DNA of 37,808 nucleotides from Thalassovita aquimarina (GTDB taxonomy: Bacteria > Pseudomonadota > Alphaproteobacteria > Rhodobacterales > Rhodobacteraceae): positions 1 through 37,808 of the forward strand of contig NZ_JADMKU010000028.1 in assembly GCF_018219815.1 (NCBI RefSeq), read 5' to 3'. The position numbers and the translations under genes are program-made. Positions 9,515-25,685 of the stretch are shown here, one piece after another. The first letter of the stretch is position 1. Every line of letters starts with the position of its first letter. A model generated the notes under the pieces. It was not told where the DNA came from. It did no database searches and saw only the letters and a program-made list of their open reading frames with translations.

Positions 9515-9565
9515 GGTCTGAATTCCGAATAGATTAAGGTCTGATCGTCTGTCTTGTTAGATTAA
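9515..9565. promoter_or_regulatory. Tandem two-part direct repeats between putR and putA
   Basis: GGTCTGA occurs at 9515-9521 and again at 9538-9544, each followed by TAGATTAA (9530-9537 and 9558-9565). The two copies have 8-bp and 13-bp internal spacers. They start immediately after the Lrp-type gene's start codon and lie 68 bp or more from the putA start. Repeated sites of this kind suit an Lrp-family octamer wrapping DNA. Function as a PutR operator is inferred. Confidence 0.45.
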
Positions 9566-9633
9566 ATGGACGATATGAACAACCGAACTGGAGTATTCTT
9601 GTCATAACGCAACATATTTCGCCCGAGGCCAGC

Positions 9634-12600
9634 ATGATCGACCTTGACCCCCGTTGGGACCGCAACAAACGCCTGAATGAAACCGAAGCCGTGGCCGCTC
9701 TGGTCGCGATGGCGGGGCTGGACGCCGCGCAGCGCGCCGCAATTTCCAAGCGGGCCGAAACCCTTGTCACCCGCATCCGGGGCGAGGCGGCGCCAGGCCT
9801 GATGGAGGTGTTCCTGGCCGAATACGGGCTGTCGACCGAGGAAGGCATCGCGCTCATGTGTCTGGCCGAGGCGCTGTTGCGGGTGCCCGATTCTGTCACC
9901 ATAGACGCGCTGATCGAAGACAAGATCGCGCCGTCGGACTGGGGCAAGCACCTGGGTCATTCCGCGTCGCCCCTGGTCAATGCCTCGACTTGGGGGCTGA
10001 TGCTGACGGGCCGCGTTCTGAAGGCCGACGCGCCCGGGCTGGCGGGCAGCCTGCGGCAGGCGGTCAAGCGGCTGGGCGAGCCGGTGATCCGAACCGCCGT
10101 GGGGCGTGCGATGCGCGAAATGGGCAGGCAGTTCGTGCTGGGGCAGGACATCAAATCGGCGATGGACCGCGCCCGCGGGCAGGAGGCAAAGGGCTACACC
10201 TATTCCTACGACATGCTGGGCGAGGCGGCGATGACCGCGGATGACGCGAAAAGGTACGCGGCATCCTACGCCGCCGCCATCACCGCGATCGCGGCGGGAT
10301 GTACATCTGACGACATCCGCTCCAACCCCGGTATTTCGGTGAAACTGTCGGCGCTACATCCGCGATACGAGGTCGCCAAGACCGATCGTGTGATGGCCGA
10401 ACTGGTGCCGGTGCTGCGTGATCTGGCGCGGCAGGCGGCCAAGGCGGGCATGGGGTTCAATATCGACGCCGAGGAAGCCGACCGGCTGGGCCTGTCGCTG
10501 AAGGTGATCGAAACCGTTCTGGCTGATCCCGAACTGCATGGCTGGGACGGATTCGGCGTGGTGGTGCAGGCCTATGGCCGTCGCGCGCCCGACGTGATTG
10601 ACGGGCTCCATGAAATAGCCGAAAGGCTGGACCGCAAGATCATGGTGCGTCTGGTCAAGGGCGCCTATTGGGATACGGAAATCAAGCATGCGCAGGTCGA
10701 AGGCCTGACCGATTTCCCGGTCTTCACCCGCAAATCCGCCACCGATGTCAGCTATATCGCCAATGCCCGCAAACTGCTGGGCCTGACCGATCGCATTTAT
10801 CCGCAATTCGCCACCCATAACGCCCACACGGTCGCCGCCGTTCTGGACATGGCCGGGGAATTGCCGAAAGAGGCCTATGAATTCCAGCGCCTGCACGGGA
10901 TGGGCGAGGCGTTACACGATCTGGTCCTGCGCGATGAAGGCACCCGCTGCCGCATCTACGCCCCGGTGGGGGCGCATAGCGACCTCTTGGCCTACCTGGT
11001 GCGGCGGCTGCTGGAAAACGGCGCCAATTCCTCCTTCGTGAACCAGATCGTGGACGAGAATATCCCGGCCTCGGTCGTCGCGGCCTGTCCCTTCGATATG
11101 CTGGAAACCGACATGACCGCGGGCGCGCCGGGCATCGCCAAGGGCCCCGACCTGTTCGGCGAAAACCGCCGCAATTCCGCCGGGTTCGACCTGTTCGACG
11201 TGACCGAGCTGAGCCGCATCGCGGAGGCCCGCGAAGACGATTTCCTGGATCGCGCCGAACCGCTGATCGCCGGTCCGCTGCAAGGCGGCGACAAGCATGA
11301 GGCGCGCAACCCGGCCAGCGGCAAGGTGATCGGCAAGGTGGTCAACGCCAGCCGCAAGGATATCGAAACCGCGCTGGCTGCCGCCAAGCCGTGGTCGGCA
11401 CCGGTGGCAAAACGTGCCGCCGCGCTGCGCCGCGCCGCCGATCTCTACGAAGACCATTTCGGCGAAATCTTCGCCTTGCTGGCGCGCGAGGCAGGCAAAT
11501 CCCTGCCCGATGCGGTGGGCGAATTGCGCGAAGCGGTGGATTTCCTGCGCTATTACGCGGCTGAGGCGGAAAAGCTCGATGCCCCGGCGCGCGGCATCTT
11601 CACCTGCATCAGCCCGTGGAATTTCCCGCTCGCGATCTTCACCGGCCAGATCGCGGCGGCCTTGGCTGCGGGCAACGGGGTGTTGGCGAAATCGGCCGAA
11701 ACCACGCCGCTGATCGCGTCTTTCGCGGTGCGGCTGCTGCACAAGGCGGGGGTCCCGGCCTCTGCCCTGCAATTGCTGCCGGGCGAAGGCCGGGTGGTCG
11801 GGCGCGCGCTGACCTCGGACCCGCGCATCGGCGGGGTCGCCTTCACCGGGTCGACCGCGACCGCCCGGATGATCCAGGCGGCGATGGCCGAAACCATGGC
11901 CCCCGGCGCACCGCTGATCGCCGAAACCGGCGGGCTGAACGCGATGATCGTCGACAGCACCGCTTTGCCGGAACAGGCGGTGCGCGACATCGTGGCCTCG
12001 GCCTTCCAGTCCGCCGGTCAGCGCTGTTCGGCGCTGCGTTGCCTTTACGTGCAGGAAGATATCGAACCGGCTTTTCGCCGGATGCTGATCGGCGCGATGG
12101 ATGAACTGTCGCTGGGCGATCCCTGGGCGCTGGAAACTGATATCGGCCCGGTCATCACCGAGGCGGCGCGCGGCGAAATCAATGCCTATATCGCCAAGGC
12201 GCGGGAACAGGAGCGCGTGTTGCACGCCTTGTCCGAACCCAATCGCGGTTACTTCGTCGCCCCCACCCTGATCAAGGTGAATAGCATTGCGGATCTGGAA
12301 AAGGAGGTGTTCGGCCCGGTCCTGCACCTGGCAACCTTCAAGGCGGGGGCGGTCGACAAGGTCATCGCGGACGTGAACGCGTCGGGCTACGGGCTGACCT
12401 TCGGGCTGCATACCCGCATCGATTCCCGGGTGCAGGACGTGGCCGACAGCATCCACGCTGGCAACATCTACGTGAACCGCAACCAGATCGGCGCCATCGT
12501 CGGCAGCCAGCCCTTCGGCGGCGAAGGCCTGTCCGGGACCGGCCCGAAAGCGGGCGGACCCAACTACCTGCCACGCTTCACCCGCCCCGGAACTGCCGTC

Positions 12601-14674: not shown

Positions 14675-15733
14675 TTACTCTGCGGGCTGGAACCCTTCGA
14701 TCAGCTGGCGCAACCCGAACGCGGCGCCGGCGAAGATCGCCGCGAAAGTGACCGGGGCGGAAAAGGCCAGCATCGAAAAGGCCGACAGCCCCTGTCCGAT
14801 GGTGCAGCCAAGCGCCAGAACCGCGCCCGCGCCCATCAACGCGGCGCCGGTGATCTGGCGGCGCAATTCGCGCGGGTCCTCGCAGGCTTCCCAGCGGAAA
14901 TGGCCCTTGAACAGCGATCCGATGAAGGCGCCGAGCGCCACGCCCGCCACCGATCCCACCGCGAAGGACGGCACCCGCGCCGAGGCGGTCATCAGGTACA
15001 GCAGGCTTTCGCCCACCGGGGCCGAGAAACTGTGCGATACGACCGGCATGTTCTCAAAACCATGCGTGGCCACCCAGTAGCTGCCGGCCCAGCCCGAGGT
15101 GATGGCGACACCCACCACCACCGACCAAAAAATGCTTTTCGGATCGGACAGGAAATCCTTTTGCGCCAGGGCGCCCAGCGTGATCAGCGCGCCGATCGCC
15201 AGCCCGACGGCGTCGACCGACATCCCGGTCCAGTTGCCGATCAGGTGCGCCAAGCCCGGCGGCACCTCGTTGACCACGTCTTCCTGCGGGAAGATCATCA
15301 CCCGCAGCCCGGCCAGCGGCCCCGACAGAACGACGTAGGCGCTGACCCCCATCACCACCACGATGACAAAGGCGCGCAGGTCGCCGCCGCCCAGCCGGGC
15401 GATCGAACCGTAGCCGCAGTTGCCCGCCAGGGCCATGCCATAGCCGAACATCAGCCCGCCGAGGATCGAGGCGAAGGGCAACCAGCGGATCGACAGGTAA
15501 TAGGACGTTTCGGTCTGCAACAGCCCGAGCGCGGATAGCCCGAAGCCGCCGATGACCGCGACGCCGATGGCCAGCACCCACATCCGCATGCGCTGGCCCG
15601 ATCCGCCATACAGCAGGTCTTCGATCGCGCCCATGGTGCAGAACCTGCCCAGCCGCGCCGCCAGCCCCAGCAGCACGCCACCGAACAGGCCGACAAGGGC
15701 GACGGCCATTTCTTCGCCGAGAAATTCAAGCAT
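14675..15733 (-). CDS. soxT: YeeE/YedE-family sulfur-compound transporter, SoxT-like
   Basis: A 352-residue polytopic inner-membrane protein of the YeeE/YedE (TsuA-like) family. Family signatures are visible: RLGRFCTMG with Cys32, LAGNCGYGSIARLGGG, and LALGCTIGQGLSAFS; conserved Cys residues in such motifs relay thiosulfate through the membrane in TsuA. The ATG at 15733 is chosen because GGAGG lies about 9 nt upstream; the frame is open to 15841 but overlaps nothing useful. It lies 40 bp downstream of soxR in the soxS-soxR-soxT operon. SoxT-type proteins are known from sox loci of alphaproteobacteria, where they may import thiosulfate or a signal sulfur species for SoxR. Confidence 0.85.
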   Translation of the reverse strand: MLEFLGEEMAVALVGLFGGVLLGLAARLGRFCTMGAIEDLLYGGSGQRMRMWVLAIGVAVIGGFGLSALGLLQTETSYYLSIRWLPFASILGGLMFGYGMALAGNCGYGSIARLGGGDLRAFVIVVVMGVSAYVVLSGPLAGLRVMIFPQEDVVNEVPPGLAHLIGNWTGMSVDAVGLAIGALITLGALAQKDFLSDPKSIFWSVVVGVAITSGWAGSYWVATHGFENMPVVSHSFSAPVGESLLYLMTASARVPSFAVGSVAGVALGAFIGSLFKGHFRWEACEDPRELRRQITGAALMGAGAVLALGCTIGQGLSAFSMLAFSAPVTFAAIFAGAAFGLRQLIEGFQPAE

Positions 15734-15773
15734 AACCGTGGCCTCCATTGACCAGACGCGGCGGAAGGATTGT

Positions 15774-16118
15774 TCAGCTGCGCTCAGCGCTGGTGCAGAA
15801 CAGCTCGTAAACCAGTTCCAGTATACGACGGGGTCGATCATCGGCCAAACGGTAATAGATGGCCTTGCCTTCGCGACGGGGGACCACCAGCCCCTCGAGC
15901 CGCAGGCGGGACAATTGCTGCGACACGGCGGCCTGACGGGCGGACAGCAATTCTTCGAGTTCGGTCACGGATTTTTCGCCGGTCACCAGATGGCACAGGA
16001 TCATCAGCCGGCCTTCGTGGCTGACGGCCTTGAGGAAATTGGACGCATTGGTGGCGTTGTCCACCATCAGGTCCATTTCTTCGTCAGATATGGTGTCATC
16101 AAACATCGGCAATCCCAT
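15774..16118 (-). CDS. soxR: ArsR-family sulfur-responsive repressor SoxR
   Basis: A 114-residue ArsR-type winged-helix protein with recognition-helix region ELLSARQAAVSQQLSRLRLEG and wing EGKAIYYRL. It has two Cys residues, 42 (MILCHLV) and 108 (ELFCTS). Their position matches the Cys pair of the SqrR/BigR/YgaV persulfide sensors, which form a sulfur bridge and release DNA. In Paracoccus, SoxR represses the sox operons. I chose the ATG at 16118 because GAGG lies 6 nt upstream; the frame is open to 16214, just after the soxS stop, and would add 32 residues including CPRCC. The role as persulfide sensor is inferred from homology. Confidence 0.88.
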   Translation of the reverse strand: MGLPMFDDTISDEEMDLMVDNATNASNFLKAVSHEGRLMILCHLVTGEKSVTELEELLSARQAAVSQQLSRLRLEGLVVPRREGKAIYYRLADDRPRRILELVYELFCTSAERS

Positions 16119-16622: not shown

Positions 16623-16642
16623 TAATATGAATATGTGAATTG
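16623..16642. promoter_or_regulatory. Degenerate copy of the sox dyad in the soxS-soxV gap
   Basis: TGAATTG at 16636-16642 matches 6 of 7 bases of the right arm of the dyads found upstream of soxX and soxC. The position where the left arm should be (16623-16629, TAATATG) matches poorly. The gap is AT-rich and is the place where SoxR is known to bind in Paracoccus. This is a weak site judged from sequence alone. Confidence 0.3.
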
Positions 16643-18014: not shown

Positions 18015-18034
18015 AAATTCATTATATTGAATTT
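18015..18034. promoter_or_regulatory. 20-bp dyad upstream of soxX, candidate SoxR operator
   Basis: The sequence is AAATTCA-ttatat-TGAATTT, with two perfect 7-bp arms around a 6-bp spacer, followed by GATG. It lies 80 bp before the soxX start in the soxW-soxX gap, where SoxR binding is known in Paracoccus. The same arms, spacer length and GATG recur upstream of soxC at 22191-22210, which makes chance unlikely. Binding by SoxR is inferred. Confidence 0.65.
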
Positions 18035-18113
18035 GATGTTGCGTCGGGGCGTTTTGTCGACTACCGTACACCAAGCTAACACAGCCAAAGAACTGGTAGC
18101 CAAGGGAGGAATC

Positions 18114-18587
18114 ATGAGGCTTTCAACACTGACACTGGCGGCAATGCTCGCTGCCGGGGCGGCAAGCGCCAACCCGGTCACCTATGCCGACGTGGTTTTC
18201 AATGAAGATGGCGGCGTAGAGGCATCGCTGACAGGCGTTGCCGGTAACCCCGAAGAGGGTGCCAAAATCTTCTCCACCAAGAGTATGGGGAACTGCGTTG
18301 CCTGCCACGAGGTTTCCACACTGGATGCCCCCTTCCCGGGGAATGTGGGTCCGATGCTTGATGGCGTTGCAGACCGTTGGGATGCAACCCAGCTGCGCGG
18401 CATCTTGGTCAACGCCAAGATGACCTATGAAGGCACGGTCATGCCCGCCTATTTCAAAACTGACGGGTACACACGCCCGGGCAATGCCTACACTGGCAAG
18501 GCTCCGGATGGTCCGCTGGATCCGCTGTTGTCGGCTCAGCAAATCGAAGATGTGGTCGCGTTCCTGGGCACTCTGAAAGAAGAGTGA
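18114..18587 (+). CDS. soxX: Sulfur-oxidation cytochrome c subunit SoxX
   Basis: A 157-residue periplasmic monoheme cytochrome c. A signal peptide (about residues 1-19) ends in AAGAASA, the heme motif is Cys61-Val-Ala-Cys64-His65, and Met110 in GTVMPAYF is the likely axial ligand. SoxX pairs with SoxA to link thiosulfate to the SoxY cysteine oxidatively. The ATG at 18114 follows GGGAGGA by 3 nt; a longer open frame starting at 18027 would destroy the signal peptide. It is the first gene of the soxXYZA unit. Confidence 0.93.
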   Translation: MRLSTLTLAAMLAAGAASANPVTYADVVFNEDGGVEASLTGVAGNPEEGAKIFSTKSMGNCVACHEVSTLDAPFPGNVGPMLDGVADRWDATQLRGILVNAKMTYEGTVMPAYFKTDGYTRPGNAYTGKAPDGPLDPLLSAQQIEDVVAFLGTLKEE

Positions 18588-18624
18588 TCGGGCGGACCCG
18601 TAGTCCTGTAGTAAGGAGAGTAAA

Positions 18625-19041
18625 ATGGAATTCTCAAGACGCGATACGCTGGCGCTTGGGCTGGGGGCAGCGGTTCTGACCGTCCTGCCGCTCCGGGTCA
18701 ATGCGGCTGCTGAAGACGCAATTGCCGCCTTCACCGGTGGCGCAGACGTTGCTGAAGGCGGCGTCAATCTGACCGCGCCGGAAATCGCGGAAAACGGTAA
18801 CACCGTTCCGGTTTCCGTCGAAGCCGCAGGCGCAAGCGCGATCCTGCTGCTGGCCACCGGCAACCCGACCCCGGGTGTGGCAACGTTCAACTTCGGCGAA
18901 CTGGCCGGGTCGCAGGCTGCGTCCACCCGTATCCGTCTGGCCGGCACCCAGGACGTGGTCGCCATCGCCAAGTTGGCTGACGGTTCCTTCGCGAAGGCCG
19001 CTCAGACCGTCAAGGTCACCATCGGCGGCTGCGGCGGCTAA
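18625..19041 (+). CDS. soxY: Thiosulfate carrier subunit SoxY
   Basis: A 138-residue carrier protein with a Tat signal (SRRDTLALGLGAAVL) and the hallmark flexible C-terminus GGCGG, in which Cys136 carries the sulfur substrate through the Sox cycle. The body is an immunoglobulin-like sheet (VPVSVEAAGASAILLL). It pairs with SoxZ, encoded 21 bp downstream, and the dimer is exported on the SoxY Tat signal. AAGGAG lies 7 nt before the ATG. Confidence 0.95.
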   Translation: MEFSRRDTLALGLGAAVLTVLPLRVNAAAEDAIAAFTGGADVAEGGVNLTAPEIAENGNTVPVSVEAAGASAILLLATGNPTPGVATFNFGELAGSQAASTRIRLAGTQDVVAIAKLADGSFAKAAQTVKVTIGGCGG

Positions 19042-19062
19042 TCAGGATCAAGGAGAAATAAG

Positions 19063-19392
19063 ATGGCATCTGGTGTAAAACCCCGCGTCAAGGCCCCGAA
19101 AAAGGCGGCTGCTGGCGAAACCGTCACGCTCAAGACCCTGATCAGCCACAAGATGGAATCGGGTCAGCGCAAGAACAAGGATGGCTCGATCATCCCGCGT
19201 TCGATCATCAACCGTTTCACCTGCGAATTTAACGGCAAGTCCGTTATCGACGTGACGATGGAACCGGCGATCTCGACCAACCCCTACTTCGAATTCGAGG
19301 CCGTTGTGCCCGAAGCCGGTGAATTCAAGTTCACCTGGTACGACGATGACGGGTCGGTCTATGAAGAGAGCAAGAAAGTCGAAGTCGCTTAA
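19063..19392 (+). CDS. soxZ: Thiosulfate carrier subunit SoxZ
   Basis: A 109-residue protein without a signal peptide, with the SoxZ features LKTLISHKMESGQRK, IPRSIINRFTCEFNGK and YFEFEAVVPEAGEFKFTWYDDDG. It forms the SoxYZ heterodimer and is co-exported with SoxY. AAGGAG lies upstream of the ATG. soxA follows after 58 bp. Confidence 0.95.
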   Translation: MASGVKPRVKAPKKAAAGETVTLKTLISHKMESGQRKNKDGSIIPRSIINRFTCEFNGKSVIDVTMEPAISTNPYFEFEAVVPEAGEFKFTWYDDDGSVYEESKKVEVA

Positions 19393-19450
19393 TAATAATG
19401 GCGCCTTGTTCCCGATCAGGGAGCAAGGCAGCCTACAGGGAGGAAGCTAG

Positions 19451-20305
19451 ATGAAATTCAAGCCAATGAGCGCAATTGCCGCCCTGGCCCTGTCGGTTCC
19501 GACGTTGGGTATGGCGGATGCGGACGATGACACGCTGGTCATCAACGGCGAAATTGAAATCGTGACCAAGACCGCTGCGCCGGCACATCTTGAAGATGCG
19601 CTGGATGAAGTCATTTCGGGCTGGCATTTCCGCGACGACGCCACCCAGGCGATGGAAATGGACGATTTCGACAATCCCGGCATGCTGTACGTCGAAGCGG
19701 CAACCGAGGTCTGGAACACCGTGGAAGGGAGCGAGGGCAAGTCCTGCGCGTCCTGTCACGGCGATGTCGAAGAAAGCATGAAAGGCGTCAAGGCGGTCTA
19801 TCCGAAGTGGAACGAGGCCGCTGGTGAGGTGCGCAATCTGCAGATGCAGTTCAACGACTGTCGCACCAACCGGATGGGCGCGGAAGCGTGGAAGTATGAC
19901 GCTGGTCCCGCCAAGAACATGGAAGCGCTGATCACTTCGGTGTCGCGTGGCATGCCGGTGAACGTGGCGATCGACGGCCCGGCCAAGGCGATGTGGGAAA
20001 AAGGCAAGGAAATGTACTATACCCGCACCGGCCAGCTGGATCTGTCCTGCGCAAGCTGCCACGAAGAAAACTACGGCAACATGATCCGCGCCGACCACCT
20101 GAGCCAGGGGCAGACCAACGGTTTTCCGGTTTACCGCCTGAAGAACGCCAAGCTGACCACGCCGCAAGGCCGCTTCAAGGGCTGTGTCCGCGATACCCGC
20201 GCAGAAACCTACAAGCCCGGCAGCGAGGATTTCCTTGCTCTGGAACTCTATGTCGCAAGCCGCGGCAATGGCCTGTCGGTCGAAGGACCGTCGGTGCGTA
20301 ACTAA
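19451..20305 (+). CDS. soxA: Sulfur-oxidation diheme cytochrome c SoxA
   Basis: A 284-residue periplasmic cytochrome with a signal peptide (residues 1 to about 21, ending VPTLGMA) and two heme motifs, Cys99-Ala-Ser-Cys102-His and Cys200-Ala-Ser-Cys203-His. Cys245 in FKGCVRDTRAE is the active-site cysteine that becomes a persulfide ligand of the second heme, so this is the two-heme SoxA type. With SoxX it forms the c-type thiosulfate-SoxY linking enzyme. GGGAGGA lies 6 nt before the ATG at 19451. A hairpin follows the stop. Confidence 0.95.
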   Translation: MKFKPMSAIAALALSVPTLGMADADDDTLVINGEIEIVTKTAAPAHLEDALDEVISGWHFRDDATQAMEMDDFDNPGMLYVEAATEVWNTVEGSEGKSCASCHGDVEESMKGVKAVYPKWNEAAGEVRNLQMQFNDCRTNRMGAEAWKYDAGPAKNMEALITSVSRGMPVNVAIDGPAKAMWEKGKEMYYTRTGQLDLSCASCHEENYGNMIRADHLSQGQTNGFPVYRLKNAKLTTPQGRFKGCVRDTRAETYKPGSEDFLALELYVASRGNGLSVEGPSVRN

Positions 20306-20312
20306 GATACCT

Positions 20313-20341
20313 TCCTGGGGCGTCTTAGGGGCGCCCCAGGA
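20313..20341 (+). terminator. Hairpin after soxA without a T tract
   Basis: TCCTGGGGCG (20313-20322) pairs exactly with CGCCCCAGGA (20332-20341) around a 9-nt loop, 7 bp after the soxA stop. No run of T follows, so it may protect or process the soxXYZA message or reduce read-through into soxB rather than end transcription fully. Confidence 0.5.
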
Positions 20342-20447
20342 CAACAACAATAATCTTAACAGGTTGGAATCGGGTCAAAAACTGGCCTCACCTCTGGTCC
20401 GAGCGGTCAGGGGGTTTGGTTTACTATAACTGTTCGGAGCTTTAGAA

Positions 20448-22151
20448 ATGATCTCCCGCCGCGACTTTCTTCAGGTATCCATGGCCGCTTCCGCGATGCT
20501 CGGCGCATCCGGTTTCGGCAATTGGGGGCGCTTGGCCGCTCAGCAGAAACTGACTCAGGATCAGCTGCTGGAATTCGACACGTTCGGCAACGTATCGCTG
20601 ATCCATATCACCGATATTCACGCCCAGCTGAAGCCGATCTACTTCCGTGAACCCGAAATCAACCTCGGTGTCGGCTCCGCCCGTGGGCAGGTGCCGCATA
20701 TTACCGGTGCCGATTTCCGCAAGATGTACGGCATTGCCGACGGGTCTCCCTCGGCCTATGCGCTGACCTATGACGATTTCACCTCGCTGGCGCGGGGCTA
20801 TGGCAGGGTTGGCGGTCTGGACCGCGTGTCCACCGTGATCAACTCGATCCGCGCCGATCGTCCCGACGCGCTGCTGCTGGATGGCGGCGACACCTGGCAC
20901 GGGTCCTATACCTGCTATCACACCGAAGGCCAGGACATGGTCAACGTGATGAACGCGCTGAAGCCCGACGCGATGACCTTCCATTGGGAATTCACCCTGG
21001 GCGGCGACCGCGTGCGCGAAATCGTGCAGGATCTGCCCTTCGCGGCCCTCGGTGCCAACATCTTCGATGCCGAATGGGACGAACCGGCCGAGGATTTCGC
21101 ACCCTACAAGATGTTCGAACGTGGCGGCGTCAAGATCGCCGTGATCGGTCAGGCCTTCCCCTACATGCCGATCGCCAACCCGCGCTGGATGTTCCCCGAA
21201 TACAGCTTCGGTATCCGTGACGAACGGATGCAGGAAGTGGTCGACGAGGTGAAGGCCGAAGGCGCCGAACTGGTCGTGATGCTGAGCCACAACGGCTTCG
21301 ACGTGGACAAGAAGATGGCCAGCCGCGTGCAGGGCATCGACGTGATCCTGTCGGGCCACACCCACGATGCATTGCCCGAACCGGTTCTGGTGGGCGACAC
21401 CATCATCATCGCGTCGGGTTCCAACGGTAAGTTCGTCAGCCGCGTCGATCTGGACGTGCGCGACGGCCGGATGATGGGTTTCCGTCACAAGCTGATCCCG
21501 ATCTTCTCGGACGTGATCGAACCGGATGCCGCAGTGACCAAGGTGATCGACGAACAGCGTGCCCCGCACCTGGACAAGATGACCGAAGTGATCGGCCGCA
21601 CCGACGATTCGAGCCTGCTGTACCGCCGCGGCAACTTCAACGGCACCTGGGACGACCTGATCTGCGACGCGCTGCTGAGCGAACGAGAAGCCGATATCGC
21701 GATGTCGCCCGGCGTCCGCTGGGGGCCGTCGATCCTGCCGGGGCAGGACATCACCCGCGAAGACATCTGGAACGTCACCTCGATGACCTACGGTCAGGCT
21801 TATCGCACCGAGATGACCGGCGAATTCATCAAGGTGATTCTGGAAGACGTCGCCGACAACCTGTTCAACACCGATCCCTACTACCAGCAGGGCGGGGACA
21901 TGGTTCGGATCGGCGGCATGGGCTACCAGATCGATATCAACAAGCCGCAGGGCGAACGGATCAGCAACCTAACCCTGTTGAAGAACGGCGAATCGATCGA
22001 TCCGGCCAAGAGCTACGTGGTGGCCGGCTGGGCCAGCGTGAACGAAGGCACCGAAGGCCCGCAGATCTGGGATGTGGTCGAAAGCCATATCCGCAAGCAA
22101 GGCACCGTTTCGGTGCAACCCCGCGACAACGTCAAGGTGGTCGGGGCTTAA
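20448..22151 (+). CDS. soxB: Thiosulfohydrolase SoxB
   Basis: A 567-residue dimanganese enzyme of the 5'-nucleotidase superfamily that hydrolyses the terminal sulfate from SoxY-bound sulfur. A Tat signal (SRRDFLQVSMAASAMLG) exports it. Metal-site motifs appear in order: HITDIHAQ (Asp56, His58), LLDGGDTWHGS (about 144-153), FHWEF (about 178-182), LSHNGFD and SGHTHDAL. The C-terminal domain from about residue 400 holds the substrate site. The 142-bp gap after soxA contains the hairpin described; GGAG lies about 8 nt before the ATG. A second hairpin straddles the stop codon. Confidence 0.95.
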   Translation: MISRRDFLQVSMAASAMLGASGFGNWGRLAAQQKLTQDQLLEFDTFGNVSLIHITDIHAQLKPIYFREPEINLGVGSARGQVPHITGADFRKMYGIADGSPSAYALTYDDFTSLARGYGRVGGLDRVSTVINSIRADRPDALLLDGGDTWHGSYTCYHTEGQDMVNVMNALKPDAMTFHWEFTLGGDRVREIVQDLPFAALGANIFDAEWDEPAEDFAPYKMFERGGVKIAVIGQAFPYMPIANPRWMFPEYSFGIRDERMQEVVDEVKAEGAELVVMLSHNGFDVDKKMASRVQGIDVILSGHTHDALPEPVLVGDTIIIASGSNGKFVSRVDLDVRDGRMMGFRHKLIPIFSDVIEPDAAVTKVIDEQRAPHLDKMTEVIGRTDDSSLLYRRGNFNGTWDDLICDALLSEREADIAMSPGVRWGPSILPGQDITREDIWNVTSMTYGQAYRTEMTGEFIKVILEDVADNLFNTDPYYQQGGDMVRIGGMGYQIDINKPQGERISNLTLLKNGESIDPAKSYVVAGWASVNEGTEGPQIWDVVESHIRKQGTVSVQPRDNVKVVGA

Positions 22152-22168
22152 GCCCCAACCGCGACCAC
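22137..22168 (+). terminator. Hairpin across the soxB stop codon
   Basis: The perfect palindrome GGGGCTTAAGCCCC (22143-22156) has the soxB TAA at its centre, and outer arms GTGGTCG (22137-22143) and CGACCAC (22162-22168) can pair around it. There is no T tract. It lies just upstream of the soxC operator-like dyad, so it could reduce read-through into soxCD. Confidence 0.4.
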
Positions 22169-22190
22169 TTGGCGCTTTACTATCTCTGAC

Positions 22191-22210
22191 AAATTCACGA
22201 AGATGAATTT
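22191..22210. promoter_or_regulatory. 20-bp dyad upstream of soxC, candidate SoxR operator
   Basis: The sequence is AAATTCA-cgaaga-TGAATTT followed by GATG: the same arms, spacer length and flank as the soxX dyad at 18015-18034, with a different spacer. It ends 27 bp before the soxC start. A TTGGCG sequence at 22169-22174 could be a -35 box for a promoter whose -10 region lies inside the dyad, but that box is weak. Repression of soxCD by SoxR is inferred. Confidence 0.6.
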
Positions 22211-22237
22211 GATGATTTAATAAGGAGGCAAAGACAA

Positions 22238-23524
22238 ATGACCGTCCGCTTCACTGGCAAGAAGCCCTCGCGGCGCGCGTTCCTGAAAGGGACGCTGGCG
22301 TCGACTGCGGGGGTTGTAGCCGGAGCCGGGGCTGCCAAAGCTGCAGGCCCCGATCCCCTGATCACCGAAAAGCAAGACTGGGCAATGAGCACCGGCGACG
22401 GTGTCGACGCAACGCCCTACGGCCTGCCGATCAAATATGAAGACGATGTGATTCGCCGCAACGTCGAATGGCTGACCGCCGACACGATCAGTTCGATCAA
22501 CTTCTCGCCGATCCACGCGCTGGACGGCACCATCACGCCGCAGGGCTGTGCGTTCGAACGTCACCATTCGGGGGCAATCGAGCTGCGCAAGGAAGACTTC
22601 CGGCTGATGATCAACGGCCTGGTCGATACGCCGCTGGTGTTCACCTACGAAGACCTGGAACGCTTCCCGCGCGTCAACAAGACCTTCTTCCTGGAATGTG
22701 CTGCCAACACCGGCATGGAATGGGCCGGTGCGCAGCTGAACGGCGCCCAGTTCACCCACGGCATGATCCACAACATGGAATATTCCGGCGTGACCCTGCG
22801 CACCCTGCTGGAAGAGGCGGGCTTGAACGCCGCCGGCGACCTGAAGGACAAATGGGTTTATGTCGAAGGCGCCGACGCGTCCTCGAACGGCCGTTCGATC
22901 CCGATGGAAAAGGCGCTGGACGACTGCATGATCGCCTTCAAGGCCAACGGCGAAGCGCTGCGCAAGGAACACGGTTACCCCGCGCGTCTGGTCGTTCCCG
23001 GCTGGGAAGGCAACATGTGGGTCAAGTGGATCCGCCGCATCGAGGTCACGGACGCAGCGGTCGAAAGCCGCGAAGAAACCTCCAAGTACACCGACACTCT
23101 GGCGGACGGCACCAGCCGCAAGTGGACCTGGGTCATGGACGCCAAATCGGTCGTCACCTCGCCCAGCCCGCAATCGCCGATCAAGCACGGCAAAGGGCCG
23201 CTGGTCATCACCGGCCTGGCATGGTCGGGCCGTGGCGCGATCACCCGCGTCGACGTGTCCAAGGACGGCGGCAAGACCTGGGAAACTGCGCGTCTGGCGA
23301 ACCCCGGTCAGCCGATGGCACTGACCCGGTTCTACCTCGACACCGAATGGAACGGCGAAGAAATGTTCCTGCAGTCGCGTGCGATGGACGAAACCGGTTA
23401 TGTCCAACCGACCAAGGCAATGCTGCGCGAAGTGCGGGGCGAAAACTCGATCTATCACAACAACTGCATTCAGACCTGGTGGGTCAAGGCAGACGGGGAG
23501 GCCGAAAATGTCGAAGTATCGTAA
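22238..23524 (+). CDS. soxC: Sulfane dehydrogenase molybdenum subunit SoxC
   Basis: A 428-residue molybdopterin protein of the sulfite-oxidase family. It has a Tat signal with the RR pair in SRRAFLKGTLASTAG, the molybdenum-ligand Cys154 in FFLECAANTGMEW, and a C-terminal dimerisation domain (VTSPSPQSPIKHGKGPLVITG). SoxCD oxidises the SoxY-bound sulfane sulfur with release of six electrons. AAGGAGG lies about 10 nt before the ATG. Its stop overlaps the soxD start by 17 bp, which fits a two-gene unit soxCD. Confidence 0.95.
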   Translation: MTVRFTGKKPSRRAFLKGTLASTAGVVAGAGAAKAAGPDPLITEKQDWAMSTGDGVDATPYGLPIKYEDDVIRRNVEWLTADTISSINFSPIHALDGTITPQGCAFERHHSGAIELRKEDFRLMINGLVDTPLVFTYEDLERFPRVNKTFFLECAANTGMEWAGAQLNGAQFTHGMIHNMEYSGVTLRTLLEEAGLNAAGDLKDKWVYVEGADASSNGRSIPMEKALDDCMIAFKANGEALRKEHGYPARLVVPGWEGNMWVKWIRRIEVTDAAVESREETSKYTDTLADGTSRKWTWVMDAKSVVTSPSPQSPIKHGKGPLVITGLAWSGRGAITRVDVSKDGGKTWETARLANPGQPMALTRFYLDTEWNGEEMFLQSRAMDETGYVQPTKAMLREVRGENSIYHNNCIQTWWVKADGEAENVEVS

Positions 23525-24575
23525 TCTCCTGATCGGTTCCGCTCTGGCCGCTATGGCCGCGTCGCCGGCTCTGGCCGAAAAGCTGGGCCTTGGCCGTCCG
23601 GCGCTGCCGGAAGAAATCGCAGCCTGGAACCTCGACATCCATCCCGACGGGACCGGCCTGCCGGTCGGTTCGGGTTCGGTTGAAGACGGCGAAGCGGTGT
23701 TTGTCGAAAACTGCGCCGTGTGCCACGGCGAATTCGCTGAAGGCTCGGGCAACTGGCCGAAACTGGCCGGGGGCGAAGGCACCCTGGCCGACAAGGACCC
23801 GCTGAAGACCGTCGGTTCCTACTGGCCCTACCTGTCGACCGTTTACGACTATGTCCGCCGCTCGATGCCGTTTGGCGCAGCCCAGACGATGAGCGACGAC
23901 GACGTCTACGCGATCACCGCCTACATCCTGTACTCGAACTACCTGGTCGAGGATGACTTCGTTCTGTCGAACGAAAACTTCCTGGATGTGGAAATGCCCA
24001 ACGCGGACGGGTTCATCGTCGATGACCGCGACACCGCCGAGGCGCATTTCTGGACCGAACCTTGCATGGAAAACTGCAAGGAAGGCGAGGTGAAGATCAC
24101 CATGCGCGCCGCGGTTCTGGACGTGACCCCGGAAGAGGAAGGTGCAGAAGAAGCCGCGGCCGAAGAAGCCCCGGCTGAAGCCGCCGCCCCGGCCGAAGAG
24201 GCCAAGGCGGAAGAGCCGGCCGAAGAACCGGTCGTTGCAGCCGCAGCGCTTGACACCGAACTGGTCAAAAAGGGCGAAAAGGTCTTCAAGAAGTGCAAGG
24301 CCTGCCACCAGGTGGGCGAGGGCGCAGCGAACAAGACCGGTCCGATGCTGAACGGCGTTGTCGGCGGCCCGATCGGCGCGGTGGAAGGCTTCAAGTATTC
24401 CAAGGGAATGGCGGAACTGGGTGAAGCCGGGGAAACCTGGAACGAAGAAAACCTGACCGCCTTCCTGACCAAGCCGAAGAGCTTCATCAAGAAGACCAAG
24501 ATGGGTTTCGCCGGCCTGAAGAAGGAAGACGACATCAATGCGGTGGCGGAATACCTCAAGTCCGTGTCGCAATAA
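23508..24575 (+). CDS. soxD: Sulfane dehydrogenase diheme cytochrome SoxD
   Basis: A 355-residue exported cytochrome c. The ATG at 23508 gives a signal peptide (LLIGSALAAMAASPALA) and overlaps the soxC 3' end. Heme 1 is Cys69-Ala-Val-Cys72-His in the N-terminal domain; heme 2 is Cys263-Lys-Ala-Cys266-His in a cytochrome c2-like C-terminal domain, with Met332 as likely ligand. Between them, about residues 209-248, lies an Ala/Glu/Pro-rich linker (EEAPAEAAAPAEEAKAEEPA) of low complexity, presumably flexible. It passes electrons from SoxC to the respiratory chain. A strong terminator follows. Confidence 0.95.
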   Translation: MSKYRNLLIGSALAAMAASPALAEKLGLGRPALPEEIAAWNLDIHPDGTGLPVGSGSVEDGEAVFVENCAVCHGEFAEGSGNWPKLAGGEGTLADKDPLKTVGSYWPYLSTVYDYVRRSMPFGAAQTMSDDDVYAITAYILYSNYLVEDDFVLSNENFLDVEMPNADGFIVDDRDTAEAHFWTEPCMENCKEGEVKITMRAAVLDVTPEEEGAEEAAAEEAPAEAAAPAEEAKAEEPAEEPVVAAAALDTELVKKGEKVFKKCKACHQVGEGAANKTGPMLNGVVGGPIGAVEGFKYSKGMAELGEAGETWNEENLTAFLTKPKSFIKKTKMGFAGLKKEDDINAVAEYLKSVSQ

Positions 24576-24677: not shown

Positions 24678-25685
24678 TTACGACCAGTATTTTCGGTAGG
24701 AATTCGGATTGTTGCCGTATTTCTTGCGGAAGGCGCGGGCCAGGTGGCTCGACGATCGGAACCCGGTTGCGGCCGCGATTTCGGTTACCGTCATGTCGGT
24801 TTCGTTGAGAAAGCCGTAGGCCCGGGTCAGCCGCAGCCCGTTGTAATAGGCCATCGGGCTCTGACCGAGGTAGCGCTTGAACAGCCGCTCGATCTGGCGC
24901 CGCGACACGCCCAGCCGGATGCACAGCTCGGACATCGACAGTGGTTCCTCAAGCGCGTTTTCCATCACCCTGATGGCGTCCAGCAGGTGCCGGTTGCGGG
25001 TGCCGATGGTGAATGAGCGCGCCGATTTCTGCGGTGAATTGGTCAATCCGGTACGGGTGTGCAGGCACATGTCGGCCACCAGCGACGCAAGGTCGGGCCC
25101 GTGGCGTTCCTCGATCAGCGCCAGCATCATGTCGATGGCCGAATTCCCGCCGCCGCAGGTCATCACCCGTCCGTCGATTTCATAGATGTTGGGCGACGGC
25201 ACCAGGTCGGGATAGGCTTCCTGAAAACCGTCATGGTTTTCCCAGTGCAGCGTGAAGCGCCGCCCGTTCAAAAGCCCCGCCTCGGCCAGTGCGAAGGCGC
25301 CGGTGCAGATGCCGCCCAGCGGCCTGCCGAACCGGTCCTCGCGGCGCAGCCAGTTGATGGTTTTATCGGACGCGATCCCGTTTGGCGAGATGGAGGAGCA
25401 GACGAACCCGGTCGCGTTTGCCGGCAGCGATTCCAATGCCATGTCAGGCGTCACCTTGATCCCGGTGGAACAGCAGATCGGCGCGCCGTCCTCGGTCATG
25501 GTGAACCAACGGTACAGCTTCGATTTCGTCAGCTGGTTGGCGATCCGCAGCGGTTCGATCGCCGAGGCCACCGCCAGCATCGTCGTGTTGGGAAGAAGCA
25601 GGAAGTAGAAATCCTCCGGCGGGCCGTCGAATGTCATCGGGAAATTGGCGGTGGCCGCTCTCTGGATGAAGTGATCTTGTTGCAT
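24678..25685 (-). CDS. GlxA-family transcriptional regulator (DJ-1/PfpI domain plus AraC HTH)
   Basis: A 335-residue regulator. The N-terminal DJ-1/PfpI-like domain (FYFLLLPNTTMLAVASAIEPLRIAN, GICTGAFALAEAGLL) is followed by an AraC-type HTH domain at about residues 225-325 (MSELCIRLGVSRRQIERLFKRY and VTEIAAATGFRSSSHLARAF). The closest known members (GbdR, CdhR and relatives) control catabolism of glycine betaine, carnitine or related compounds. No such genes are adjacent, so its target is unknown. The frame is open far upstream, but the ATG at 25685 begins the family-typical N-terminus. It faces clpP; three TTTGCGAC repeats lie in the gap. Confidence 0.85.
   Translation of the reverse strand: MQQDHFIQRAATANFPMTFDGPPEDFYFLLLPNTTMLAVASAIEPLRIANQLTKSKLYRWFTMTEDGAPICCSTGIKVTPDMALESLPANATGFVCSSISPNGIASDKTINWLRREDRFGRPLGGICTGAFALAEAGLLNGRRFTLHWENHDGFQEAYPDLVPSPNIYEIDGRVMTCGGGNSAIDMMLALIEERHGPDLASLVADMCLHTRTGLTNSPQKSARSFTIGTRNRHLLDAIRVMENALEEPLSMSELCIRLGVSRRQIERLFKRYLGQSPMAYYNGLRLTRAYGFLNETDMTVTEIAAATGFRSSSHLARAFRKKYGNNPNSYRKYWS

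Follow-up and report, generated by a model that had tools for sequence, protein, structure and literature searches.

The thiosulfate-oxidation (sox) gene cluster of the marine-type sulfur oxidizer Thalassovita aquimarina, which lies in a stretch of 37,808 nucleotides of contig NZ_JADMKU010000028.1 (hereafter the window), carries two exact copies of the inverted repeat AAATTCA-N6-TGAATTT, one ahead of soxX (18015-18034) and the other within the cluster, ahead of soxC (22191-22210). The product of soxC is the molybdenum subunit of the sulfane dehydrogenase SoxCD, the enzyme that determines whether periplasmic oxidation takes the sulfane sulfur of thiosulfate to sulfate. On sequence grounds, the soxC dyad is very probably an operator of the ArsR-family repressor SoxR and one of a set of internal SoxR sites that recur in sox clusters. 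It is moderately probable that the SqrR-like SoxR encoded in the window itself (15774-16118, minus strand) has both dyads as its operators, and that soxCD (or soxBCD) is governed by the sulfur signal that also governs soxX, an arrangement that suggests control of the cluster by one sulfur-sensing repressor at several points. This reading draws on the motif, its conservation and position, the type of SoxR encoded nearby, and a statistical link of the internal site to terminators and to soxC genes lying far from soxB.

The two 20-mers contain no mismatch, differ in their spacers (TTATAT at soxX and CGAAGA at soxC), and are each followed by GATG. Throughout the genome (67 contigs, 4,329,792 bases) they are the only exact dyads, with one further site deviating by a single mismatch, whereas about 0.006 exact copies per genome are expected under a second-order Markov model of the window's composition. 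Within the window, four matches with at most three mismatches were found against 0.69 expected from shuffles, a count reached in one of 100 shuffles. An earlier, sequence-only reading of this DNA had pointed to the agreement in arms, spacer length, and flank and had judged chance very unlikely; both judgements are borne out by the exactness of the copies and by these genome-wide numbers. It had also counted 18 agreeing bases by including GATG, and although that flank is indeed shared, it weighs less than was claimed, as the soxX flank runs into a promoter and has the consensus GTTGTTGC in relatives. The soxC flank, GATGAT, is not followed by a promoter of the soxX type. A third, degenerate site of the same type, absent from the sequence-only reading, lies in the soxS-soxV gap (16623-16642, score 8.6 on the matrix described below) and overlaps a -10-like TAATAT; equivalents scoring at least 8 occur in 35/74 named loci, the window included, and in many relatives a TTGACG-like -35 lies upstream of the site.

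The gene for the candidate repressor lies 2 kb away from the soxX dyad. The protein has an ArsR-family winged-helix domain, recognized by PF01022 (37.1 bits, cut-off 22) and NF033788 (80.6, cut-off 55), while the score against the BigR equivalog model NF040642 (94) is under the cut-off of 155. Its closest solved relatives are the ArsR-family chains 13ct and 6o8k-6o8o (E 1.4e-35, 95 residues aligned), which we take to be SqrR of Rhodobacter capsulatus; both sensor cysteines align with cysteines of these chains, and a near-identical stretch falls where we presume the recognition helix to be. The core of the dyad, ATTC-N8-GAAT, is exact at 18015 and at 22191 and equals the recognition site deduced for SqrR (PMC9774250). 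The earlier proposal that the dyads are candidate SoxR operators has good sequence support in this SqrR-type motif, in the nearby gene for a SqrR-type SoxR, and in the wide occurrence of the soxX site together with SoxR, as set out below.

Two sets of relatives were used. The named loci are 80 soxC loci, the top-ranking ones out of at least 588, and almost all of them carry Rhodobacteraceae genus names in their titles. The genus sample derives from 295 genomes of the family, of which 179 encode SoxC; DNA was analysed for 140 of 180 SoxC places (the window's own included), with two loci from one genus (G224) and one from every other, and one locus (L194) has no measurable soxB-soxC gap. Denominators vary by gap because some gaps are lost to truncated contigs. 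Sites were scored with a position weight matrix (PWM) whose training set was made up of 67 soxX sites from these 80 loci named above and included no soxB or soxC sites; a score of at least 8 was used throughout the genus sample and at least 14 as the strict level in the named loci. The window's soxX and soxC dyads score 32.4 and 27.8, respectively.

At soxX, the dyad is present in 72/74 named loci at the strict level, window included, and in 113/127 loci of the genus sample, a rate that is not independent because training species overlap that sample. It accompanies SoxR, being found in 107 of 113 loci with the repressor and in 6 of 14 without a close one (p 5e-6), where SoxR was counted as present in a genome at E <= 1e-36 and some genomes scored as lacking it are incomplete. 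The median distance from the end of the dyad to the start codon is 78 bp, and a conserved promoter comes after the dyad. In the window this promoter consists, on the plus strand, of a -35-like TTGCGT (18039-18044) and a -10-like TACCGT (18062-18067) separated by a 17-bp spacer. Among 109 relatives, 100 have TTG at dyad offset +24, 90 have TAnnnT at +48, and 9 have it at +47, the window being of the +47 type.

Conservation of the soxC dyad among relatives, a check that the sequence-only reading had proposed and whose failure it had named as a refutation, was found in 23/135 loci of the genus sample and, at the strict level, in 13/81 named loci including the window. Carriers include Thalassobius vesicularis, Litorivita pollutaquae, three Pelagimonas, two Lentibacter, and the cultivated Thalassovita litoralis, which has exact dyads before both soxX and soxC. 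Dinucleotide shuffles of 134 of the 135 gaps gave an expectation of 0.85 such sites against the 23 seen, and control gaps within the cluster are almost devoid of them, both in the genus sample (soxX-soxY 0/127, soxY-soxZ 0/131, soxZ-soxA 1/126; 1/384 together) and, at a score of 8, in the named loci (soxX-soxY 0/74, soxZ-soxA 0/75, soxC-soxD 0/81). Outside the Rhodobacteraceae but in the same class, a dyad precedes soxC in 2/28 loci (L277, L284). Placement is regular: in 22 of the 23 loci the dyad ends 15-28 bp ahead of the start codon, directly before the ribosome-binding site, which in the window is AAGGAGG on the plus strand (22222-22228), 11 bp past the dyad. All 23 loci fall among the 47 with gaps of 55-140 bp, and a terminator-like hairpin is found in 9/23 loci with the dyad compared with 6/112 without it (p 7e-5). 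Close SoxR is encoded in the genomes of 26 of 27 loci with a soxC dyad.

The commonest internal position in the family is a different one. A weaker variant of the dyad precedes soxB in 74/127 loci of the genus sample (1.1 expected from dinucleotide shuffles) and in 58/75 named loci at scores of at least 8, ending a median of 26 bp from the start codon. Terminator-like hairpins in the soxA-soxB gap accompany it (66/74 loci with the soxB dyad and 30/53 without, p 4e-5), where the call, an RNAfold hairpin of at most -10 kcal with a T-run, is a simple one that also fires in 31/120 soxW-soxX gaps; a stricter terminator search gave hits in 37/75 soxA-soxB gaps and 3/79 soxB-soxC gaps. One locus (L010, 8204-8223) exemplifies a hairpin followed by the dyad variant directly before soxB in mid-cluster. 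The soxA-soxB gap of the window has neither a dyad (best score -10.1) nor a T-run terminator; it holds a strong hairpin without a T-run (20313-20341, plus strand), perhaps an element of mRNA stability or processing. In most relatives a terminator-like hairpin together with a dyad occupies this place.

A tree of SoxB with 126 rows requires 17 changes for the soxC site and 29 for the soxB site, so that internal sites come and go. The three nearest SoxB relatives of the window (L116, L099, L090) have the soxC site and no soxB site, and the fourth (L145) has a soxB site only. Across the named loci, 10 have neither site, 7 soxC only, 54 soxB only, and 4 both (p 0.002); the corresponding numbers in the sampled genera are 38, 15, 64, and 8 (p 0.02). 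A strict exchange of the two sites was considered and set aside, as tree-independent pairs are non-significant (median p 0.25, 7 pairs), leaving a tendency only. A more elaborate scheme, in which the sox operon is segmented by cassettes of terminator and SoxR operator that stand before soxB or soxC and have moved between the two, with the late segment gated by SoxR and its ratio to SoxXYZA set or uncoupled by operator strength, seems to us possible though unlikely.

The best hint that the internal site can serve soxCD alone comes from soxC genes that are separated from soxB. Six loci (L035, L057, L112, L151, L215, L229) have no soxB in the 700 bp upstream of soxC, and all of them carry a soxC dyad, including the 4/4 that belong to the genus sample (L112, L151, L215, L229; p 0.0012). 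In the two Lentibacter genomes (L035, L057) soxCD is on a different contig from both soxB and soxR; soxB and soxC are 2.5-3.2 kb apart in L112 and L215, and soxC follows straight after soxA in L151 and L229. In L112 and L215, inspection by eye suggests a pair of ATTC-N8-GAAT-like dyads ahead of soxC, with about 40 bp between them.

Several observations weigh against the preferred reading. The dyad before soxC is missing in 112/135 loci, including all nine with a soxB-soxC gap of 463-512 bp (L062, L075, L129, L143, L147, L148, L185, L220, L221). Its association with SoxR does not reach significance (26/121 loci with and 1/18 without, p 0.20), and even at soxX, six loci with SoxR lack a dyad scoring at least 8 and six without close SoxR possess one, five of them at 14 or above. 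No conserved -35/-10 pair and no enriched offset of TTG or TAnnnT were found near the 30 soxC sites compared; a -10 inside the dyad with TTG 16-17 bp upstream can be made out by eye in a few loci and is not general. The genome also encodes a BigR/SqrR-like paralogue of SoxR that could share the motif, which is taken up below. Finally, the soxB-soxC gap of the window has no T-run terminator, so read-through from soxX is possible and soxC may not need a start of its own. A palindrome, GGGGCTTAAGCCCC, spans the soxB stop codon (22143-22156, plus strand) and was rejected as a terminator because a T-run after it is missing. As to the nine long gaps, which are similar in length, that of L062 was searched and encodes a small, probably secreted DsrE-like protein between soxB and soxC (9531-9968; PF02635, just under cut-off).

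Should SoxR operate as proposed, the reduced repressor would sit on both operators when usable sulfur is lacking. Sulfane sulfur supplied as thiosulfate or polysulfide would then bridge its two cysteines and release it from DNA, as reported for SoxR of Hyphomicrobium denitrificans, a related ArsR-type repressor whose DNA binding is lost on polysulfide (PMC10451225). The soxX operator abuts the -35 element of the conserved promoter. The soxC operator, by its location inside the cluster and directly before the ribosome-binding site, would place soxCD, as a second segment, under the signal that also governs soxX, whether by controlling transcription that may start locally, by acting as a roadblock to polymerase arriving from soxX and so tightening repression, or by both. 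Elsewhere in the Rhodobacteraceae, internal control would usually be placed before soxB, behind a terminator; in the window and in scattered relatives it would be placed before soxC.

The sequence-only reading had gone further and proposed that SoxCD is repressed separately, so that a cell could run the Sox system with or without it. A distinct operator does stand before soxC, and in 18 of 23 loci it scores below its soxX counterpart (median 18.9 vs 28.3), so thresholds at the two sites could differ. The motif and the presumed repressor are nevertheless identical to those at soxX, which makes co-induction the first expectation; internal sites most often precede soxB, a core gene whose product either mode needs; and neither a second signal nor any other sequence feature pointing to a mode without SoxCD was found. 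We therefore regard independent repression of soxCD, and a truncated Sox mode with it, as improbable, and a claim that SoxCD is switched off on its own as beyond the evidence. A role for a regulator other than SoxR is about as doubtful. The obvious candidate is the paralogue mentioned above (G000:C7:27524), 62% identical to SoxR; against its involvement, the 3.3 kb searched around its gene hold no dyad (best score -6.2), and the soxX site co-occurs with orthologues of SoxR itself.

The soxC dyad could also act in RNA, as a hairpin that sits ahead of the ribosome-binding site and adjusts translation or the stability of the mRNA. Eight base pairs can form when it folds in the transcript, and its two outermost pairs covary among soxC sites (22/28 and 24/28 paired; 3 and 0 shuffles out of 500 did as well), as to a lesser degree does the next pair outward (19/28, 17/500 shuffles), all uncorrected for relatedness; covariation of the outermost pairs is not seen at soxX sites. 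Against a function in RNA, the core ATTC/GAAT shows no compensatory change, though choosing sites by PWM favours that outcome, and it equals the SqrR site. The same sequence moreover stands upstream of the soxX promoter, outside the soxX transcript, and before a soxH-like gene elsewhere in this genome and in relatives (see below). Taken together, we hold an RNA element to be rather unlikely. That the soxC copy is a functionless relic or a chance repeat would agree with its absence from most relatives and with the frequent gain or loss implied by the 17 changes on the SoxB tree. The excess of soxC sites over shuffled expectation, their fixed spacing to the start codon, and the retention of the dyad in the three nearest SoxB relatives of the window speak against it, and leave this explanation very improbable.

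SoxR binding to both dyads, the reading we prefer, can be set beside what is known of related systems. In Paracoccus pantotrophus and Pseudaminobacter salicylatoxidans, SoxR operators reportedly occupy the soxS-soxV and soxW-soxX gaps, and the window resembles both in having sites in these two gaps. Unlike P. pantotrophus, it adds an exact internal site before soxC: strain DSM 11072, whose SoxR is 54% identical to that of the window over the aligned part, has only weak matches in the soxS-soxV and soxW-soxX gaps (scores of 8.4 and 7.3), and its soxB-soxC gap holds no match. The statement of the sequence-only reading that a second site before soxC falls outside the standard model thus holds for this strain. 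It also agrees with searches of abstracts and passages of openly licensed papers, in which SoxR sites preceding soxB or soxC in Rhodobacteraceae were not found described; the founding SoxR studies fall outside that scope. SqrR of R. capsulatus has in common with the window's SoxR the core ATTC-N8-GAAT and both cysteines in the 95-residue alignment, and differs in that its reported targets are sulfide-oxidation genes and not a sox operon with internal sites (PMC9774250). SoxR of H. denitrificans is alike in having several intergenic sites within one sulfur-oxidation region, but the Sox system of this organism is truncated and lacks SoxCD (PMC10451225), so that a site upstream of soxC could not be seen there.

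The motif extends beyond the sox cluster. The third strong dyad of the genome, with its single mismatch, lies at G000:C64:71702-71721 (L241, 1503-1522; score 29.4) before the gene of a SoxH-like metallohydrolase (a match to TIGR04559 under the cut-off), which is followed by a rhodanese gene. Among the best 30 soxH-like loci from 58 genomes with the gene, own genome included, 13 have a dyad upstream scoring at least 8, compared with 0/30 control stretches, which lends support to a wider sulfur regulon. Four weaker matches in the genome (L237-L240) have no sulfur gene nearby, as judged by eye from open reading frame starts without a family search.

The cluster itself is divergently arranged: the minus strand carries a soxT-like gene, soxR, and soxS, and the plus strand carries soxVWXYZABCD. 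The soxT-like gene (14675-15736, start uncertain) encodes a YeeE/YedE transporter (PF04143, E 6e-60) and is downstream of soxR, giving the order soxSRT; the assignment of SoxR rests on ArsR models and alignment to solved chains. Curated NCBIfam cut-offs are passed by SoxX (18114-18587, TIGR04485), by SoxY, SoxZ, and SoxA (18625-20305; TIGR04488, TIGR04490, and TIGR04484), by SoxB (20448-22151, TIGR04486), and by SoxC (22238-23524, TIGR04555). SoxS, SoxV, SoxW, and SoxD are named from their position and from tblastn relatives in the named loci, with no NCBIfam match for SoxS or SoxW; soxD (23508-24575) has cytochrome c matches, and a tblastn match lies downstream of soxC in 81/81 named loci including the window. 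Adjoining soxD on the opposite strand is a gene for an AraC regulator with DJ-1/PfpI and HTH_18 domains (24678-25640, minus strand), presumably GlxA-like.

If SoxR operators do stand inside the cluster, ahead of soxB in most genera of the sample and ahead of soxC in others, the sox genes of the Rhodobacteraceae would not form one simply regulated operon, and models based on Paracoccus would miss a layer of control.

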